Shown here: positions 6,198-28,680 of the stretch, in pieces | How positions within the stretch are numbered: position 1 is the stretch's first letter | How the letters are laid out: the number at the start of each line of letters is the position of its first letter | Assembly: GCA_003599485.1 (NCBI GenBank) | Contig: QZKM01000021.1 | Location: 1-32,008 of the forward strand | Direction of reading: 5' to 3' | Length of the DNA stretch: 32,008 nt | Source: Gammaproteobacteria bacterium | Lineage (GTDB): Bacteria; Pseudomonadota; Gammaproteobacteria; SURF-13 | Notes under the pieces: model-generated | What the model was told of the DNA's origin: nothing | The model's input: the letters and a program-made list of their open reading frames with translations, nothing else | Database searches by the model: none | Program-made: the position numbers and the translations under genes

Positions 6198-6983
6198 CTA
6201 AATCTTTAACGACGTGATGAGCCCCTCGCTGACCCAGCGCCGCAATAGCCCTGCCGCATAGGCGGGAACCTGTTTTTCCGGAACCGACCGGCACAGTCCT
6301 GCGCACACTACGGCAAAGCTGTGGCGCGCGTAGACCGCGTCCCATGCCCTGGCTTCCTCCACGGAGAGCGGGCGGAAATAAGTTTCCAGTTCCTGACGCC
6401 ACACCAGCCAGTCTTGCGGTCGCTGATTGCGCTCCGGAGCCGGAGGAGTTTCTTTTTTATGGATAGCGCTCCAGATCGCGGGCGCATCCCAGAATAACTC
6501 CACGCGCTGCGCCGAGGCGTGGGTCTCAAAGCGCAAGCTCCCCCAGCCCCCGGCGGGCACGCGCGCGATGTCGTCCACGGTGACCACGGTGCTGTCCGCG
6601 GCGTCAAAGGCGGAGATCATGGCCCATTCAAACTCGGCCAACTCGGCAAGCACCGGCTGCCTGGAATAAAGGACATCCTGGCGCAGAAACCCGCTCATAT
6701 GCCGGCCGAAATGGCGCAGTGACGGATGTTGAGAGGGGTGGGCGTCAATATAACGCAGGCACAGCGTGTGAAATTGATCGTCCCCCAACAAGCCGTGCAG
6801 CGCCTCGAAGTCTTCCTGCAAGGCCTCTTCCAGGCGCATCCGGTACGCCCCGGCGTAAATATCGAGCCGCCGCCGTGCGCCGGCCCTGGCGTCACTGACG
6901 ACCTGGGTTTCAATAGGGCTCGCGTCTGCAGGATGCAGCAGGTAACCCTGAAAATCCCGCTGCATGGTTCGAAGCAGGGTCAT
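6198..6983 (-). CDS. bufC: DUF2063 family protein, bufferin maturation partner (BufC/HvfC type)
   Basis: Partner of the DUF692 (MNIO) enzyme, thought to bind the precursor peptide and present it for modification. The product is 261 residues. The DUF2063 N-terminal helical domain is seen in the first 100 residues ([10 protein letters not shown], then [18 protein letters not shown] and [14 protein letters not shown]). The C-terminal half is more divergent. Its ATG overlaps the bufB stop by four bases, so the two are translationally coupled. The order precursor, DUF692, DUF2063 matches known bufferin operons. The exact substrate relationship is inferred. Confidence 0.88.
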
Positions 6984-7828
6984 GCCGCCAGTTCCCGGTG
7001 CGCCAGCCTGGCAATGGCGCGCACGCGATTGAGTTCCTCGATCAACTCGGGCAATTCCGGGATATTGTCGTCACGCTCTATCATGGTGCTGATCCGTCCA
7101 AAACGGCTTACCGCGTGCTCATACAGCGCCCACACCGGATCAATGACGGGCGCGTCGTGCGTGTCAATAATCATCTCGCCGTTTTTGCTGTGTCCGGCGA
7201 GGTGAAACTGCTGCACCCGTTCCACCGGCAAGGCGTTGATATACGCTATCGGATCGAACTGATGATTTTGCGCGCTGACATAAATATTATTGATGTCCAC
7301 CAGCAACAGGCAGTCCGCCGTTTCCGCCACGGCGCGCATGAACTCCCATTCAGTCATCTCGGAGCCGGTGTAGGCAAGATAACTGGAGACGTTTTCAATC
7401 AGGATGCGCCTGCCCAGATAATTCTGCACTTGTCCGATGCGCTCAACCACGTGTCTCAGCGCCTCTTCGGTGTAGGGCAGCGGTAAAAGATCGTGCATGT
7501 TTTTGCGCTGCACGCCGGTCCAGCACAGGTGATCGGAGATCCAGCGCGGTTCGATGCGTTGCGCGAGGGTTTTAAGATCACGCAGGTAATCCTTGTTGAG
7601 AGGGTCCGTGCTGCCGATGGAGAGCGAGACGCCGTGCATCACCAGCGGATACTGCGCGCGGATGCGCTCCAGGAAATGCAGCGGCTTTCCGCCCGCCACC
7701 ATGTAGTTCTCCGACAGTATCTCAAACCAGTCAACGTGAGGGCGCTCATTGAGTATAGTCTGATAGTGCGCGGTGCGCAGGCCCAGGCCGAAGCCGAGGT
7801 GGGGATGGGTTTTGTGCTGTTCGCTCAC
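6980..7828 (-). CDS. bufB: DUF692 multinuclear iron-dependent oxidase (MNIO), bufferin-modifying enzyme
   Basis: MNIO enzymes have a TIM-barrel fold and a multi-iron site, and they oxidise cysteines in peptide substrates; in bufferins this gives thiooxazole-type groups that bind copper. The product is 282 residues, normal for the family. Expected metal-ligand motifs are present: MHGVSLS (H65), ISDHLCW (H100), IENVSSYL (E145), DINNIYV (D178), FHLAGHS (H209, H213), DTHDAPV (D222, H224) and ERDDNIPEL (E251). It lies 10 bases after the precursor gene and overlaps bufC. Family membership is clear; copper as the relevant metal is inferred from characterised bufferins. Confidence 0.92.
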
Positions 7829-7838
7829 GTGAGCCGGC

Positions 7839-8114
7839 TTAAAAATCGAACGGGCCTTGCTGCTGGACGGCTTCTTTCGCCGCCTCGCATTGCTCCGGCG
7901 TCAGCCTGAGAAAGCCCCGGCCTTTGCAACTGTTGCTGCCCTTGCATTGGTTGCCGCTGGCGCAGTCGCCTTTCCCGCGGCAGGCGTTTACCTCCGCGCA
8001 ACGGATTTTCTTTACCTCAGTCGTCTGGTCATTGTTGTGGCCCGGCGCCGCGCAGGAACTGATCAGCAGCCCCGCCGCGCCCGCCAATATGTAACCTTTT
8101 GCTGATGCTGCCAC
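7839..8114 (-). CDS. bufA: Cys-rich bufferin-type precursor peptide (BufA2-like), possible lipoprotein
   Basis: Predicted substrate of the DUF692 enzyme next door: an exported peptide whose modified cysteines would bind copper or a similar metal. I chose the GTG at 8114 because it follows a strong AAGGAAAGG site; an ATG at 8132 would add six residues but has no such site. The product is 91 residues with a hydrophobic N-terminal segment ending LLISSC, which fits a lipobox. The mature part has six regularly spaced cysteines with the repeated pattern C-K-G-S-N-S-C-K-G typical of this class, in the stretch [16 protein letters not shown] and onward, then a TPEQCEAA segment. Assignment rests on this pattern plus gene order. 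Confidence 0.8.
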
Positions 8115-8132
8115 AGCCCTTTCCTTGAACAT

Positions 8133-8195: not shown

Positions 8196-9623
8196 TTAAC
8201 CGCGCAATCGGAATATCCGCTTGATCCATTTCTTTGCGCCCGGCGTGAGCCCCTCCTTGAGCCGCTGATCGGCCACGCGCCGGTTGATCTGCGCCAGTGT
8301 GGGGTAGACATGGATGACCTTGGATAAATCCGCGGCCTTCATGTTTTTTGACAGCGCGAGCGCGCACTCGTGTATCAGTTCACCGGCATGCGCGCCGGCC
8401 AGCGCCGCACCGAGCAGACGTCCATTGGGCGCGGTGATGATCTTGGCGAAGCCGTGCGTTTCATCTTCGGTGCGCGCGCGGTCTATGTCATGAAAGGGAA
8501 AAGTATATACGCGATGTTCAATGCCTTGTTGTTTGGCTTCCGTTTCGGAAATTCCGACGCGCGCCAGTTCCGGATCGGTGAAGGTGCACCAGGGGACGAC
8601 ACGCTGCTCTATCCTGGCCGGGAGATGAAACAGGGTGTTGCGCAGTACTACGCCCGCATGATGTTCCGCCATATGGGTAAACTGATATGAACCCACCACG
8701 TCGCCGCAGGCATAGATGCGCTTGTTCGTGGTGCGCAGGCGGCGATCCGTCACCAGACGGCCGTTTTCGAGGCGCACACCCGCGCTTTCCAGCCCCAGAT
8801 TATCCACGTTGACCTTGCGCCCGTTGGCGACCAGTATGTGCGTGGCGGTGACGATTTTTGCATCGCCGGCCACCGTTCTGAGGTGCAGACGTATGCCGCC
8901 GCTGTCGCTTTCCACGCGTTGCGGCGTGCAACCGGTGTGCAATTCAACGCCGTCTTTACGGAGACTCTCGGCCACCACCTGCGCCAGATCGTGGTCCTCG
9001 TTGGACAGGATGTGCGCGCCACGCTGCACCAGAAAGACGCGCGTGCCGAGGCGCGCGAACGCCTGCGCCATTTCCACGCCGATGGGGCCCGCTCCGAGTA
9101 CAATCAGGCTCGGCGCCGGCCCCTGTAAAGAAAAGACCGTTTCGTTGGTAAGGTAAGGAATGTTTTCCAGTCCGGGCAGTGATGGAACGTTGGGACGTGA
9201 GCCGGTGGCCAGAACAAAATTCCTCGCCGTGAGGGTTCTGCCCTGCACCTGAAAGGCGCATGGACTGATGAATTGACCGGCGCCGAAGATCACTTCCACG
9301 CCGAGGGAACGGAAGCGCTCCGGGCTGTCGTTGGGTTCAATGCCTTTGATGACGTCCTGTACATGGCGCATGGCCTCGCCCAGATGCGCGACGGGTGGAG
9401 AACACTCCACGCCGAAACGGTGCGCGTTACGCACGGTGTGCGCGATTTTCGCCGCGTGCAGTAGACTCTTGCTCGGCACACAGCCGTAATAAAGACAGTC
9501 GCCGCCCAGGCGGTGTTTTTCCACCAGCGCCACCTTGGCCCCCAGCGTTGCGCCGCCCGCGGCGGCCACCAGCCCGGCCGCGCCGCCGCCGATGACGCAC
9601 AAATCGAATTCCGGCTTGCCCAT
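8196..9623 (-). CDS. MerA-like FAD-dependent pyridine nucleotide-disulfide oxidoreductase
   Basis: Class I flavoprotein disulfide reductase of 475 residues. The N-terminal FAD-binding fingerprint is LCVIGGGAAGLVAAAGG (about residues 8-24), the redox pair is GGDCLYYGCVPSK (C43, C48), and the NAD(P)H-binding segment is SLIVLGAGPIGVEMAQAFARLG. The C-terminal dimerisation domain ends HVYPTLAQINRRVADQRL. There is no N-terminal heavy-metal domain and no C-terminal vicinal Cys pair, so true mercuric reductase activity is unlikely. ATG at 9623 is chosen because AAGGAA precedes it; the frame reaches back to a GTG at 9641. Relatives often accompany TVP38/TMEM64 genes, here divergent, 125 bases away. 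The substrate is unknown. The next gene on the same strand is the bufferin precursor. Confidence 0.88.
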   Translation of the reverse strand: MGKPEFDLCVIGGGAAGLVAAAGGATLGAKVALVEKHRLGGDCLYYGCVPSKSLLHAAKIAHTVRNAHRFGVECSPPVAHLGEAMRHVQDVIKGIEPNDSPERFRSLGVEVIFGAGQFISPCAFQVQGRTLTARNFVLATGSRPNVPSLPGLENIPYLTNETVFSLQGPAPSLIVLGAGPIGVEMAQAFARLGTRVFLVQRGAHILSNEDHDLAQVVAESLRKDGVELHTGCTPQRVESDSGGIRLHLRTVAGDAKIVTATHILVANGRKVNVDNLGLESAGVRLENGRLVTDRRLRTTNKRIYACGDVVGSYQFTHMAEHHAGVVLRNTLFHLPARIEQRVVPWCTFTDPELARVGISETEAKQQGIEHRVYTFPFHDIDRARTEDETHGFAKIITAPNGRLLGAALAGAHAGELIHECALALSKNMKAADLSKVIHVYPTLAQINRRVADQRLKEGLTPGAKKWIKRIFRLRG

Positions 9624-9731
9624 GCTATGATTTCCTTGCACTGTGTTGCAGCACAGCGTAATGCAAAGTGTTTATCCCGCCAAGCGCAATCTCGCCACGG
9701 CGGGAAAATAGTACACTTTTGTGAGAAATGT

Positions 9732-9745
9732 GTGATAAAAATCAT
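9732..9745. promoter_or_regulatory. FNR/CRP-family-like dyad in the divergent intergenic region
   Basis: GTGAT-AAAA-ATCAT has the TGAT-N4-ATCA core of FNR/DNR-type operators. It lies between the flavoprotein (-) and TVP38 (+) genes. If functional, it favours a TVP38 start at 9749 or 9761 over the ATG at 9728, which would place the dyad inside the coding region. This is a match by eye to a degenerate consensus. Confidence 0.35.
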
Positions 9746-9748
9746 GGC

Positions 9749-10453
9749 ATGATACGCAGCATGTATGAGCGGTGGATCAAGCGGCTTATTGCGTTGGCGT
9801 TTATCGGCGGACTGGCGGCCTTTTTCACGCTGGGTGGAAATGAATGGCTGAGTTTCGAGGCGCTTAAACAGAACCGTGACGAATTGCTGGCCTACGCTGG
9901 TGAGCACTACGCGCTGATGCTGGCGGCTTCAATGGCAATATATACTGCCGCGACGGCGTTGAGCGTGCCGGGGGCGGTAGTGCTGTCGCTCGCGGTGGGG
10001 CTGCTGTTCGGACGCTGGGTAGGAACGGCGCTGATCGTGTTTTCCGCGACCCTGGGCGCGACCCTGGTGTTTCTTGCCGCGCGCTATTTGTTCGCCGAGG
10101 CCGCGCAGCGGCGCGCCGGCGGGTTTATCAAAAAGATCATCGCCGGGTTTCATGAGAATGCGTTTCACTATTTACTGTTCCTGCGCCTGGTGCCCCTGTT
10201 TCCTTTCTGGCTGGTGAATCTTGCGCCCGCGTTCACACCGATCAGCCTGCGCACCTATGTCGCCGCCACCGCCATCGGCATTATTCCGGGGAGCTTTGTA
10301 TTCGCCAATCTGGGGCAGTCGCTGGGGCGCATCGAATCGGCGGCGCAACTCGTATCCTGGGAGACCTTGGCGGCGTTTACCTTGCTCGGCGTGTTTGCGC
10401 TGGTACCGGTCATGATCAAGAAATTCAGGACGCAGGATACCGGGGATAAGTAA
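9749..10453 (+). CDS. TVP38/TMEM64 (SNARE-associated/DedA superfamily) membrane protein
   Basis: Inner-membrane protein of about 234 residues; the superfamily is linked to lipid scrambling or transport and membrane homeostasis, but roles in bacteria vary. A first membrane segment follows a basic N-terminus (RWIKRLIALAFIGG). The conserved core includes LSVPGAVVLSLAVGLLFG, then LLFLRLVPLFPFWLVNLAPAF and the IIPGSFVFANLGQSLG segment. The start is uncertain: ATGs at 9728, 9749 and 9761 are in frame and none has a clear ribosome binding site. Its stop shares one base with the PiT start (TAATG), so it heads a tightly coupled four-gene operon with PiT, arsS and arsM. Confidence 0.87.
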   Translation: MIRSMYERWIKRLIALAFIGGLAAFFTLGGNEWLSFEALKQNRDELLAYAGEHYALMLAASMAIYTAATALSVPGAVVLSLAVGLLFGRWVGTALIVFSATLGATLVFLAARYLFAEAAQRRAGGFIKKIIAGFHENAFHYLLFLRLVPLFPFWLVNLAPAFTPISLRTYVAATAIGIIPGSFVFANLGQSLGRIESAAQLVSWETLAAFTLLGVFALVPVMIKKFRTQDTGDK

Positions 10454-11553
10454 TGTTCACCGCGCTCGTGCTGTCACTGCTGGTGCTTGGGCTTGCCTGG
10501 GCGAACGGCGCGAACGACGTCGCCAAGGGCGTGGCGACGCTGGCTGGCAGCGGTATAGTCAATGCCCGGCGCGCCGTCGCATGGGGCTCAATCTGCACGC
10601 TGCTGGGCGGGTGCGCGGCGGTGCTGTGGGGCGGGGCGCTGGTCAGTACCTTCAGCGACGGGTTCTTGCAGTCCGGCTTTCCAATAAGCATGGGCTTTGT
10701 AGGCGGTGTAGTGACGGGCGCCACGGTGTGGGTGGTGCTGGCGACGCGATTGGGGTTGCCGGTGTCCACCACCCATGCCCTGCTGGGTGGTGTGGTAGGC
10801 GCAGCGCTGTTTCTTGCCGGGCCGGCCGGATTGCATACCGCCGCGGTGACGAACAAGGCATTGCTGCCGCTGCTGCTCAGCCCGGTGATTGCCATCGGAC
10901 TGTGCTGGCTGCTGTTGCTGGGCGCAAGGTATGTCGAGAGGAAAATACCGGCATGGAGTCCGGGCTGTTGCGACAAAGAGGCGTGGCAGAAAAATCCCTA
11001 CCTCTGTGCCGACAATGCCGGTCAATTGCCATTGCCGCTGGTGCAGAAAATCTGGGTGGGTCTGCACTGGCTATCCAGCGGTGTCACGAGCTTCGCGCGT
11101 GGCCTGAACGACGTGCCCAAGATATCCGCCTTCTTGATCCTGGTCGTCGCGCTCACGCCCGGTCTGCCGTTGGCCGTTTCACAACAACAAGCTGTTTGGC
11201 CGATTATGGCAGTGACGCTGATGATGATGTGCGGCAGTTTGTGGGGCGGATACCGTGTGTTGCAGGTGCTGGCCCACCGGGTGACGGCGATGGATGCGCG
11301 CAACGGTTTGGCGGCTAACGTGGGTACCTCGTTTCTGGTGCTGGCCGCCACGCCGCTCGGGTTGCCGGTGTCCACGACACATGTCAGCACCGGCTCCTTG
11401 ATGGGGGTGCGCTGGGCGGACGGCGCACGGCCCAATCAGCGTGATGCGTTGAAACTGATACTGTTCGGCTGGGTCATCACTCTACCGTTGGCGGCGCTGA
11501 TGGCGGCGGCGAGTTTGTGGCTGATGAGGATTTTCACGGGAGATGGAGTATGA
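10453..11553 (+). CDS. PiT-family inorganic phosphate permease
   Basis: Integral membrane phosphate:cation symporter of 366 residues. The two inverted PiT signature repeats are clear: GANDVAKGVATLAGSGIV near residues 17-34 and GLNDVPKISAFLILV in the second half. Each half also carries a matching STTH segment (VSTTHALLGGVVG and VSTTHVSTGSLMG). About ten hydrophobic segments are visible, with a short central hydrophilic loop (about 160-200) rather than the long domain of eukaryotic PiTs. PiT systems also carry arsenate, so its place directly before arsS and arsM (four-base overlap) suggests a role in phosphate/arsenate balance; that is inference. There is no adjacent PhoU-like regulator. Confidence 0.93.
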   Translation: MFTALVLSLLVLGLAWANGANDVAKGVATLAGSGIVNARRAVAWGSICTLLGGCAAVLWGGALVSTFSDGFLQSGFPISMGFVGGVVTGATVWVVLATRLGLPVSTTHALLGGVVGAALFLAGPAGLHTAAVTNKALLPLLLSPVIAIGLCWLLLLGARYVERKIPAWSPGCCDKEAWQKNPYLCADNAGQLPLPLVQKIWVGLHWLSSGVTSFARGLNDVPKISAFLILVVALTPGLPLAVSQQQAVWPIMAVTLMMMCGSLWGGYRVLQVLAHRVTAMDARNGLAANVGTSFLVLAATPLGLPVSTTHVSTGSLMGVRWADGARPNQRDALKLILFGWVITLPLAALMAAASLWLMRIFTGDGV

Positions 11554-12530
11554 GCGCGGTGCACCCTATAATCAAAACGGCATCGTTTCCGCCGCTCAGG
11601 CGCGCGCGGCTGACCACGCTGCAAGTCAATCTCGGCTATGTGTGCAACCAGCAATGCACCCACTGTCATGTCAACGCAGGCCCGAAGCGCAGGGAATTGA
11701 TGAGCCGCGACACGGTAAAACAGGTGTTACATTATCTGCGCGCGGCGGAAATAACCACGCTGGATATTACCGGCGGCGCGCCGGAGATGAATCCCCACTT
11801 CAGGGAATTGGTGATCGCCGCGCGCAGTGAGGGTGTGCGCGTCATGGATCGCTGTAATCTTACCATTCTGGAACAGCCGGGCTACGAGGACATGGCGCAA
11901 TTTCTCGCTGGTCACCAGGTGGAGATCGTCGCCTCGCTGCCGTGCTACCTGGAGGACAATGTGGACAAGCAGCGCGGTGACGGCGTATTCCAGGCCAGCC
12001 TGCGTGCGCTGCAAAAACTCAACCGCCTGGGTTACGGCGCGGAAGACGGCGGCCTGACGCTTAATCTGGTTTATAACCCGGCCGGGCCCTCACTTCCGCC
12101 TCCGCAAGCCGCGCTGGAAAGCGATTACAAGCGCGAACTGTTTAGCCGTTACGGTATCGTATTTAATCGTCTCTACACCCTTGCCAACATGCCCATCAAT
12201 CGCTTTGCCGCCGTGCTGAAGAAGGAGGGCCGGTATCAAGACTACATGCGGCTGTTGCAGGACGCGCACCAGGACGCCAATCTGGACGGCGTGATGTGCC
12301 GCTCGCTCATCAGCGTGGACTGGCGGGGATACCTGTATGATTGCGATTTCAACCAGATGCTGGATCTGCCGTTGCGGATCAACGGCAAGGCGCGCACGCA
12401 CATTTCCGCATTGATGGACACGGATTTGGAAGGGCGTCCGATTGTCATCGGCGGCCATTGTTATGGATGCACCGCGGGACAGGGCAGCAGTTGCGGCGGC
12501 GCGTTGAATGAGGAGATGCAACAATCATGA
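11550..12530 (+). CDS. arsS: Arsenosugar biosynthesis radical SAM protein ArsS
   Basis: Radical SAM enzyme thought to attach the 5'-deoxyadenosyl group to a methylated arsenical, the first dedicated step to arsenosugars. The product is 326 residues. The [4Fe-4S] motif is CNQQCTHC (C32, C36, C39) after LQVNLGYV, followed by ITGGAPEMNPHF as in the family. The C-terminal domain (DUF3641) has NLVYNPAGPSLPP, then CDFNQMLDLPLR and ends with the Cys cluster HCYGCTAGQGSSCGGALN. Some homologues carry selenocysteine; this copy reads as an all-Cys version with no in-frame TGA. ATG at 11550 follows GGAG and overlaps the PiT stop (ATGA). It overlaps arsM in the same way. Confidence 0.93.
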   Translation: MSAVHPIIKTASFPPLRRARLTTLQVNLGYVCNQQCTHCHVNAGPKRRELMSRDTVKQVLHYLRAAEITTLDITGGAPEMNPHFRELVIAARSEGVRVMDRCNLTILEQPGYEDMAQFLAGHQVEIVASLPCYLEDNVDKQRGDGVFQASLRALQKLNRLGYGAEDGGLTLNLVYNPAGPSLPPPQAALESDYKRELFSRYGIVFNRLYTLANMPINRFAAVLKKEGRYQDYMRLLQDAHQDANLDGVMCRSLISVDWRGYLYDCDFNQMLDLPLRINGKARTHISALMDTDLEGRPIVIGGHCYGCTAGQGSSCGGALNEEMQQS

Positions 12531-13675
12531 ATACACAACTGAGTGTAGTGGAACGTTACTCCGGCGCGGCGAAACAGCGCGAGGCGGCGCTGTGCTGCCC
12601 GGTCAATTACGACCAGGGGCTGCTTGCCCTGTTGCCGCGCGAGATTATCGAAAAAGATTACGGCTGCGGCGATCCCTCGCGCTACGTGCGAGAAGGCGAC
12701 GTGGTGCTCGATCTCGGCAGCGGCGGCGGCAAGGTGTGCTACATGGCCGCGCAACTGGCGGGGGAGAATGGCCGCGTGATAGGCGTGGACATGAACGACG
12801 ACATGCTCGCCTTGGCGCGTAAATATCAGCAGGAAATGGCGATCAAGCTGGGCGGCGACAGGGTGCGCTTTGTCAAAGGACGCATCGAGGATTTGGCGCT
12901 GGACGTGGAGGCGATGGAGCATTACTTGAAAACGCATCCGGTACGCAGCGCCACCGATCTCGATGCGCTGCACGCCTGGCAGGCCAGACAACGCCTGGCG
13001 CAGCCGCTGATTGCGGACAATTCAGTTGATCTGGTGATCTCCAATTGCGTGCTGAATCTGGTGGACGACGCGTACAAGACTCAAATGGTGCGTGAGATAT
13101 TCCGCGTGCTCAAACCGGGCGGGCGCGTGGCGATCTCCGACATCGTGAGCGACGAGCCTGTGCCCGCGCACCTCAAGGCCAACCCCGATTTGTGGAGCGG
13201 CTGCATCTCCGGCGCGTTCCAGGAACAGGAGTTTCTGCGCGCCTTTACCGAGACCGGTTTTCTCGCCGTGACCTATGACAAGTGGGACGCCGCGCCGTGG
13301 CGGGTGGTGGAAGGCATCGAGTTCCGCTCCGTCACGCTCACCGCGATGAAGGGGGCGGGCACGGCCTGTTTCGATTACGGTCACGCGGTGATTTACCGCG
13401 GCCCTTATGCGTCCATTACCGACGATGAAGGCCACGTCTATGTGCGCGGCGAGCGCATGGCGGTGTGCGAGCGCACCTATCAACTGCTTACTGCAGGGCC
13501 GTACAAAAATGACTTCATCGGCATCTCGCCCACGGTGCTGCGCGAGCCGGTGACCTGGTGCGCCCCCGCCGGTACCAAACGCAGCGCAGCCGAGACCAAG
13601 GGCGCTGTGCACGCGGCCGCTCCCATCCTGCCTCGTGCGTCGCAGGCGTGTGATCCGGCGGGCGGCTGCTGTTGA
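12527..13675 (+). CDS. arsM: Arsenite S-adenosylmethionine methyltransferase (ArsM type)
   Basis: Methylates trivalent arsenic using SAM; with ArsS it would feed arsenosugar formation. The product is 382 residues. The SAM-binding motif is VVLDLGSGGGK (about 59-69), then VIGVDMNDDML. The four cysteines of ArsM enzymes are all present: the CC pair at 23-24, C47 in DYGCGDPS, C174 in ISNCVLNLV, and C226 in WSGCISGAF. An insertion of about 40 residues (about 126-165) separates the SAM domain halves. The last residues are Cys-rich (ACDPAGGCC), which may hold a further arsenic atom. Its ATG overlaps the arsS stop by four bases. It ends four bases from the convergent DUF3047 gene. Confidence 0.92.
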   Translation: MNTQLSVVERYSGAAKQREAALCCPVNYDQGLLALLPREIIEKDYGCGDPSRYVREGDVVLDLGSGGGKVCYMAAQLAGENGRVIGVDMNDDMLALARKYQQEMAIKLGGDRVRFVKGRIEDLALDVEAMEHYLKTHPVRSATDLDALHAWQARQRLAQPLIADNSVDLVISNCVLNLVDDAYKTQMVREIFRVLKPGGRVAISDIVSDEPVPAHLKANPDLWSGCISGAFQEQEFLRAFTETGFLAVTYDKWDAAPWRVVEGIEFRSVTLTAMKGAGTACFDYGHAVIYRGPYASITDDEGHVYVRGERMAVCERTYQLLTAGPYKNDFIGISPTVLREPVTWCAPAGTKRSAAETKGAVHAAAPILPRASQACDPAGGCC

Positions 13676-26751: not shown

Positions 26752-27513
26752 CTAATAACGCACCCAGTACCAGAGCCTGCCCAACTGCTCGCGCAATGCG
26801 ATGCGGCTGGATTGCAAAGCCCCTGCGTCCGGCAGCCATTGAAAATGGGCGGGCAGGGCGGGGTCGCGCAGTGACAGGAAGTGCGTGGGTGCGGGGATCA
26901 CCGCCACGCCGGCGCGCTCGAAGGCCCATACCGAGCGCGCCATGTGCGTGGCATGGGTGACGAGGTAGGCTTTGTTCATTCCGCGCTGCGCGAGCAGGTC
27001 TTTGCTGAAGCGCGCGTTTTCCGCCGTGTTGCGGCTTTGATCTTCCAGCCACACCTCGGTGACGCCGAATTCATGGAGCGCATCGCGCATCAAGATTGCA
27101 TCGGTAGTGGCTTCGCCGAGAGGCGCGCCGCCGGAGACGATAATGGGCAAGCCGGTTTGCCGGTGCAGCCGCGCCGCATAGCGCACCCGTTCCAGCGCCT
27201 CCATGCCCACCGTGTCCATGCCGTATTCGGGCGCGCCGGAGTAGCGTCCGCCGCCGAGCAGCACGATGGCCTGTGCGCCTTCCGCATTGCTCACCTCCGG
27301 AGTTAACGCCGGATAGCTCTCCGCCCACGCCAGCAGCCGGTGCGCCACGAACGGCGTGCTCAATGCATACAGGCTGAGCAGCGCCGCGCCGAACAGCGTA
27401 AGACCAAAGCGCTTGTGTTTTTGCAGCAGGTAAAAACCCAGGATAAAAACCAGTAACAGGCCGCCGGGCGGCAGCAGCCACGCTTCGATGCTGCGGGTGA
27501 TGATGATTTCCAT
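26752..27513 (-). CDS. YdcF/ElyC/SanA family (DUF218) membrane protein
   Basis: Product of 253 residues with two N-terminal membrane segments ([18 protein letters not shown] and [20 protein letters not shown]) and a DUF218 domain facing the periplasm. Domain motifs are [43 protein letters not shown] and [19 protein letters not shown]. The family includes ElyC, which acts in cell-envelope biogenesis and lipid-carrier use at low temperature; the exact role here is not known. It is divergent from prfB across 56 bases. Confidence 0.9.
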
Positions 27514-27569
27514 GGCGCGGGATGCTCTGTGTTAAAATCAGCATTTTGCCAGAGATGGAAAGGAAGGTC

Positions 27570-28680
27570 ATGCTCGAACTCGCTCCCCTCCACGCGCGCA
27601 TCAAGGATATGCAGCAGCGTTTTGAAGTGCTACGGGGGTATCTTTGACTACGACCGCAAAACCGAGCGCCTGACGGAAGTCGAGCGCGAGCTTGCCGATC
27701 CGAAATTGTGGAGCAACGCGGAGCGCGCGCAAGAGCTGGGGCGCGAGCGCACGCAGCTTGCGGCTATCGTAAGTACGCTGGGCGGTCTCGGCGCGCATCT
27801 CAACGAGGCGCGCGAGCTGCTGGAGCTGGCGGCGGAGGAGAACGACGCCGGGGCGGTCGAATCCGTGGCAGGCGATCTCGCGCGCGCGGAGCAGGAGCTG
27901 GCGGCGCTGGAGTTCCAGCGCATGTTCTCCGGCAAGATGGACAGCGCCAGCGCCTACATGGATATCCAGTCCGGCTCCGGCGGCACCGAGGCGCAGGACT
28001 GGGCGCAAATGCTGCTGCGCATGTATCTGCGCTGGGGCGAGCGGCACGGCTTCAACGTGGAGGTGATAGACGAGTCACCGGGCGAAGTCGCGGGCATCAA
28101 GGGCGCAACGATCAAGTTTGCGGGGCCGTACGCCTACGGCTGGCTGCGCACCGAGAGCGGCGTGCACCGCCTGGTGCGCAAGTCGCCCTTCGATTCCGGC
28201 AATCGCAGGCACACCTCGTTTGCCTCGGTATTCGTCTATCCTGAGGTGGATGAGAGCGTGGAGATTGACATCGCCCCCACAGACCTGCGCATAGACACCT
28301 ATCGCGCGAGCGGCGCGGGCGGGCAGCATGTGAACCGCACCGAGTCGGCGATACGCATCACGCACCTGCCGACCAATATCGTGGTGCAGTGCCAGAGCGA
28401 CCGCTCGCAGCACAAGAATCGCGCCACGGCGATGAGCCAGTTGAAGGCAAAGCTTTACGAACTGGAAATGAAAAAGCGCGACTCCGAGCGCCAGGCGCTG
28501 GAAGAAGCAAAATCGGATATCAGCTGGGGCAGCCAGATACGCTCTTACGTGCTCGACCAGTCACGCATCAAGGATTTGCGCACCGGCGTGGAAAAGGCCA
28601 ACACCCAGGCGGTGCTGGACGGCGATCTGGATGACTTTATCGAGGCGAGTTTGAAGAAACAAGTAGCGAGTGGCCAGTAG
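27570..28680 (+). CDS. prfB: Peptide chain release factor 2 (programmed +1 frameshift)
   Basis: Release factor for UGA and UAA stop codons. The first 25 codons (ATG at 27570 after AAGGAAGG) end at an in-frame TGA (27645-27647); reading continues in +1 from GAC at 27646, joining 27570-27644 to 27646-28680 for 369 residues (E. coli 365). The specificity tripeptide SPF is in [14 protein letters not shown] and the catalytic GGQ in [16 protein letters not shown]. The autoregulatory shift senses low RF2 levels. The last residues (QVASGQ) are encoded by a heptamer repeat that also supplies the stop. lysS follows, as in E. coli. Confidence 0.97.
27634..27648 (+). promoter_or_regulatory. prfB programmed +1 frameshift site
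   Basis: An internal Shine-Dalgarno-like GGGGG (27634-27638) stands three bases before the slippery CTT-TGA-C (27642-27648), the same arrangement as in E. coli. The peptidyl-tRNA slips from CTT to TTT when UGA is read slowly, giving the +1 product. Confidence 0.95.

Follow-up and report, generated by a model that had tools for sequence, protein, structure and literature searches.

The bufABC cluster and its surroundings

The 32,008-nt stretch of DNA analysed here (the window) belongs to a genome (G000) of 1.69 Mb in 50 contigs with a completeness of 95.9%. On its minus strand an open reading frame of 97 amino acids, counted from the ATG, lies at 7839..8132. The deduced protein scored 64.7 bits against NF050166, the NCBIfam model of the BufA2 bufferin-type metallophores (cut-off 60), and 64.3 bits in the genome-wide search, while Pfam holds no family matching it. 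The six-cysteine core (7887..8000, minus strand) retains all six canonical BufA2 cysteines (C45, C51, C57, C63, C69 and C82), as judged by alignment with orthologues, and lies within the NF050166 match, which spans residues 15-87. The core deviates in carrying Glu in place of Gly after its first cysteine and CRG in place of CKG after its second.

The precursor gene is followed on the same strand by two genes with intact reading frames. The first (6980..7828, minus strand), which starts ten bases downstream of the precursor, is predicted to encode the MNIO bufferin maturase BufB (NF050167, 402.8 bits, cut-off 310; PF05114, 388.4 bits). The second (6198..6983, minus strand) overlaps the end of bufB and is predicted to encode the DUF2063 partner BufC, scoring 76.1 bits against PF09836 (cut-off 27.2) and 49.2 bits against NF050145, under the cut-off of 142. 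The first-pass annotation of the frame as a bufferin precursor is thus supported by the NF050166 score above cut-off, the six core cysteines and the adjacent bufB and bufC. Judged by its sequence, the gene is an ordinary BufA2 family member in a standard bufferin gene cluster.

BufB of the window contains the motif ERDDNIP, in which an Asp follows the presumed catalytic Asp (ERD-D-NIP). According to the accessible part of PMC13097082, the MNIOs of the Cys-Lys (BufA2) group have Asp in place of Phe beside the catalytic Asp. Matched by motif rather than by alignment to FonB, the window enzyme is consistent with this type.

Rather than the annotated ATG (8132), the true start of bufA2 is more likely the GTG that lies six codons further in, at 8114. 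It is directly preceded by AAGGAAAGG (8118..8126, minus strand), which reads as a likely ribosome-binding site, and a GTG stands at the equivalent position in the orthologues L017, L018 and L019, whereas no ribosome-binding site is evident in the sequence upstream of the ATG. The likelier coding sequence would therefore comprise 91 codons (7839..8114, minus strand). All residue numbers given here are nevertheless counted from the ATG, so that the leader cysteine discussed below is C27, corresponding to residue 21 from the GTG.

Beside the cluster lies a conserved block (8196-13675) with genes for a FAD/mercuric-reductase-like oxidoreductase, a VTT-domain protein, a PHO4-family transporter, ArsS (TIGR04167, 474 bits) and an ArsM-like methyltransferase that scored under its cut-off. 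The block is syntenic over much of its length in three genomes of the collection (G001, G002 and G004), the compared stretches ending at arsS. Further along the window, the region 27500-27660 (plus strand), which we assign to prfB encoding RF2, contains the classical programmed frameshift site GGGGGTATCTTTGAC, with LRGYL and a TGA in one frame and FDYDRK in the next.

The leader and its cysteine

The leader of the precursor ends in ISSC (residues 24-27; 8052..8063, minus strand), the Cys codon TGC lying at 8054-8052. By inspection it consists of a basic n-region and a hydrophobic segment that reaches the Cys and leaves hardly any polar c-region. Lipoprotein signal peptides are built in this way, with the hydrophobic segment running up to the Cys. 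By motif comparison ISSC fits the lipobox consensus [LVI][ASTVI][GAS]C, which permits Ser at -1, as quoted in the available part of PMC7857515; the earlier reading of LLISSC as a lipoprotein signal closing the signal segment is therefore credible.

C27 is a seventh cysteine, additional to the six of the family, and is separated from the first core cysteine by a linker of 17 residues (8001..8051, minus strand), within the range of 13 to 27 residues in 19 lipobox BufA2 matched by regular expression. It had been proposed that lipidation would withdraw the first cysteine from modification. This would apply to the extra C27, but no family cysteine would be lost, and a cost of lipidation in modifiable core cysteines is ruled out.

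The leader cysteine was compared across 97 distinct BufA2-like frames from 112 loci, collected with a home-made core profile at E-values up to 1e-6. The loci are mainly BufA2 matches in 95 relatives and in 369 genomes of the class, and comprise nearly all matches above the BufA2 cut-off and a few below it. A cysteine at the lipobox position was detected in 20 of the 97 proteins, 19 of them by regular expression and one (L070, LFGC) added by eye, since its Phe at -2 escapes the pattern. In the remaining 77 proteins, the 2249 residues that extend from where the hydrophobic segment starts up to the first core cysteine include no cysteine; about five of the 77 are membrane-domain fusions (e.g. L016, L044, L103, L105 and L109) rather than proteins with plain signal peptides. 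The same region of the 20 lipobox proteins holds 22 cysteines, 20 of which occupy the lipobox position. Since cysteines are absent from the one set and concentrated at this position in the other, a cysteine in a BufA2 leader appears to be almost always a lipobox cysteine, and the presence of C27 seems beyond chance.

In the lipobox proteins L102 and L112 a second leader cysteine was observed a few residues past the first (CTTLCGES and CTSMCGES). L021, a BufA2-like protein below the BufA2 cut-off, combines the lipobox LVLSGC with a core of repeated CKGKxAC and adjoins BufB and BufC. Outside this sample, a contig scan of genomes with the window protein gave 218 pattern matches, of which a single one was a relative, distant and alphaproteobacterial. 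A plasmid search returned 19 records, all below 60% identity over matched stretches of about 40-52% of the query, which are uninformative for the lipobox region.

The leader could also be read as a substrate of signal peptidase I (SPI), cleaved after the SCA of SCA-A and releasing a soluble periplasmic bufferin, with the Cys placed by chance substitution at position -2 relative to the cleavage. This acceptable SPI site overlaps ISSC, and for this reason inspection alone does not decide between SPI and SPII. S-C-A fits the pattern [AVST]xA, which follows the hydrophobic segment in 73 of the 77 non-lipobox leaders, and the close orthologues are of the SPI type by inspection. In the pairwise alignment with the same-genus orthologue of G001, whose leader alignment is itself uncertain, TAQAAT faces SSCAAP of the window, so that SCA-A may overlie an ancestral site (AQA-A in G001). 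Furthermore, Ser at -1 is unusual among lipobox BufA2, as it occurs only in the window among the 19 regex-matched proteins and the other 18 have Gly. However, a chance substitution is difficult to reconcile with the absence of cysteines from the 2249 leader residues mentioned above, and the hydrophobic segment running up to the Cys is lipoprotein-like. We consider cleavage by SPI unlikely and regard SPII cleavage of the window leader as quite probable.

The locus in related genomes

The order is represented in the collection by six genomes, all of one family. Exactly one BufB above the cut-off was detected in each of the six, and bufABC genes are present in all five genomes other than G000. 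None of the BufB-linked BufA2 of these five genomes has a leader cysteine (L035; L015 and L036; L017 and L038; L018 and L040; L019 and L041). The first-pass annotation had named homologues without the Cys as evidence against the lipobox. Such homologues exist in the five genomes, but lipoboxes occur elsewhere in the BufA2 family, and the Cys-free relatives therefore point to a recent gain rather than to the absence of a lipobox. For a bacterial lipoprotein, orthologues usually share the lipobox Cys, but such conservation does not strictly define the class.

In G001, of the same genus, the gene order is that of the window (seryl-tRNA synthetase, BufC, BufB, BufA2, FAD oxidoreductase, VTT protein, phosphate-type transporter, ArsS). 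The BufB proteins of the two loci share 84% identity, and from the first core cysteine onwards the window precursor is close to its G001 orthologue, whereas its leader has strongly diverged. Because the nearest relatives, including this syntenic orthologue, lack the Cys, the window probably gained its lipobox Cys recently and independently of the other lipobox groups.

A quick tree of 69 MNIO rows, calculated without bootstrap, groups the window with G001 (SH-aLRT 93). It omits BufA2 loci that lack a full-length MNIO frame or whose MNIO is identical to one already included, and its rows stand for fewer than the 97 precursors. The smallest starred set containing the window comprises four non-lipobox rows and the window as the one lipobox row. 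Over the whole tree the lipobox label requires at least eight changes, four of them forced by starred branches, in a parsimony count that is blind to gain versus loss. That all lipobox BufA2, the one of the window included, go back to one origin was rejected, within the limits of this quick tree, on account of these label changes and of the position of the window among the four non-lipobox rows. What appears to be new here, if modest, is that anchoring has probably changed within the genus at this conserved locus.

The genome of the window (G000) encodes a second BufA2 (L001; contig 11, 39837-40052) with an apparent SPI leader (AHA-AEMG). No match to BufB or BufC was found in the 6.5-kb stretch around it (L048), and the genome encodes a single BufB; if both precursors are modified, the same BufBC pair would consequently modify both.

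The second copy bears on another explanation, in which the window gene is decaying under relaxed constraint, with its leader and first core motif drifting while the second BufA2 does the work. The window protein has the lowest NF050166 score (64.3 bits) among the ten BufA2 of the order, its leader is far diverged from that of the same-genus orthologue, and the genome has the second, SPI-type copy, with no MNIO match within the stretch around it. The retention of all six core cysteines, the intact frames of bufB and bufC, the close similarity of the core to G001 and the conserved gene order argue against decay, which we regard as very improbable. A sequencing or assembly error, conceivable in a draft genome whose Cys recurs in no second genome's orthologue, can practically be dismissed, as the frame is open throughout, divergence extends over the entire leader and the codon aligned to TGC is CAG in the nearest relative, more than one base away, so that a single miscalled base would not suffice.

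Within single clusters, a BufA2 gene for a lipobox protein and one lacking the motif were observed in tandem at the loci L045, L068, L106, L110 and L076, as a recurring pairing of predicted soluble and anchored precursors. Four rows of the MNIO tree (L045, L068, L106 and L110) adjoin both kinds, whereas L076 has no MNIO in the tree.

We tentatively suggest, as a possibility that we would rate below an even chance, that the place where a bufferin resides can be switched in evolution. Within one genus, a BufA2 that was soluble would have become anchored in the membrane by the gain of a Cys near the old SPI site, with the maturase unchanged. One BufBC pair would then serve two precursors of the same cell, one tethered and the other soluble, and the buffering of copper would be shared out between the membrane and the periplasm.

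Proposed maturation and comparison with known systems

The genome encodes Lgt (PF01790, 284.6 bits) and LspA (PF01252, 160.5 bits), both over their cut-offs, as are Lnt and LolB, and lipidation of the precursor is therefore possible. In the proposed pathway BufB and BufC would oxidise some of the core cysteines in the cytoplasm, presumably to 5-thiooxazoles by analogy with other pairs of MNIO and DUF2063 proteins, before the precursor is exported via Sec. Lgt would then add diacylglycerol to C27, LspA would cut before it and Lnt would attach a third acyl chain.

The residue at +2 after the lipobox Cys is Ala. In E. coli, as stated in the accessible part of PMC7857515, lipoproteins with Asp at +2 stay in the inner membrane. 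Since the window has Ala rather than Asp, an outer-membrane fate of the predicted lipoprotein is suggested as the simpler guess, with transfer by the Lol system. There, the six-cysteine domain on its 17-residue linker may bind excess copper on the periplasmic face. We hold with good confidence that the product is a BufA2 precursor that is modified by BufBC, exported via Sec and anchored through C27 as a copper binder of the outer membrane. The observation is thus real, and the window gene most likely encodes a lipid-anchored BufA2 bufferin precursor.

A membrane-tethered bufferin had been regarded as a variant by the first-pass annotation. That such a variant would be new was rejected, as about 16% of the Buf2 bufferins have already been predicted to carry lipoprotein signal peptides, with possible anchoring in the membrane, according to the available text of PMC12452194. 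The part of PMC12636315 at hand repeats this and describes SPII signals in a subset of bufferins and oxazolins. A literature search, beyond whose reach many subscription papers lay, found no experimental lipidation of a BufA2.

Taken alone, the window gene thus adds one case to the predicted lipid-anchored bufferins. Should the anchoring be confirmed, the window gene and its same-genus orthologue, with the same gene order and different leaders, would form a natural pair for the role of anchoring in copper tolerance. The same pair would bear on the tolerance of BufBC for differing signal peptides. According to a preliminary remark of the authors in the accessible part of PMC12452194, the recognition sequence presumably includes the signal peptide.

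In comparison with known systems, the window shares with the BufA2/Buf2 bufferins (NF050166; Buf_6/12Cys; the precursors of the "Cys-Lys" captophorins) the six-cysteine core, a leader that is putatively of the Sec type and the adjacent BufB (MNIO) and BufC (DUF2063). It differs from them in a leader ending in a lipobox, which is lacking in 77 of the 97 sampled proteins, and in its first two core motifs, which are slightly off the consensus (CAEVN and CRG).

The lipobox-bearing Buf2 bufferins, as far as they are described in the available part of PMC12452194, have the same core together with a predicted lipoprotein signal peptide. The window stands apart from them by Ser at -1 instead of the Gly of the 18 other regex-matched proteins, and by its isolated position in a lipobox-free clade, probably the result of an independent gain.

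The lipidated oxazolin NedA and the lipidated chryseobasin-like peptide DybA likewise derive from MNIO-modified precursors with a lipoprotein signal, according to the part of PMC12636315 that was accessible, but they belong to other precursor families, characterised by EGKCG repeats and CPACGMG. Their acylation was demonstrated experimentally in E. coli, NedA being a triacylated MNIO-modified peptide, whereas that of the window product is predicted.
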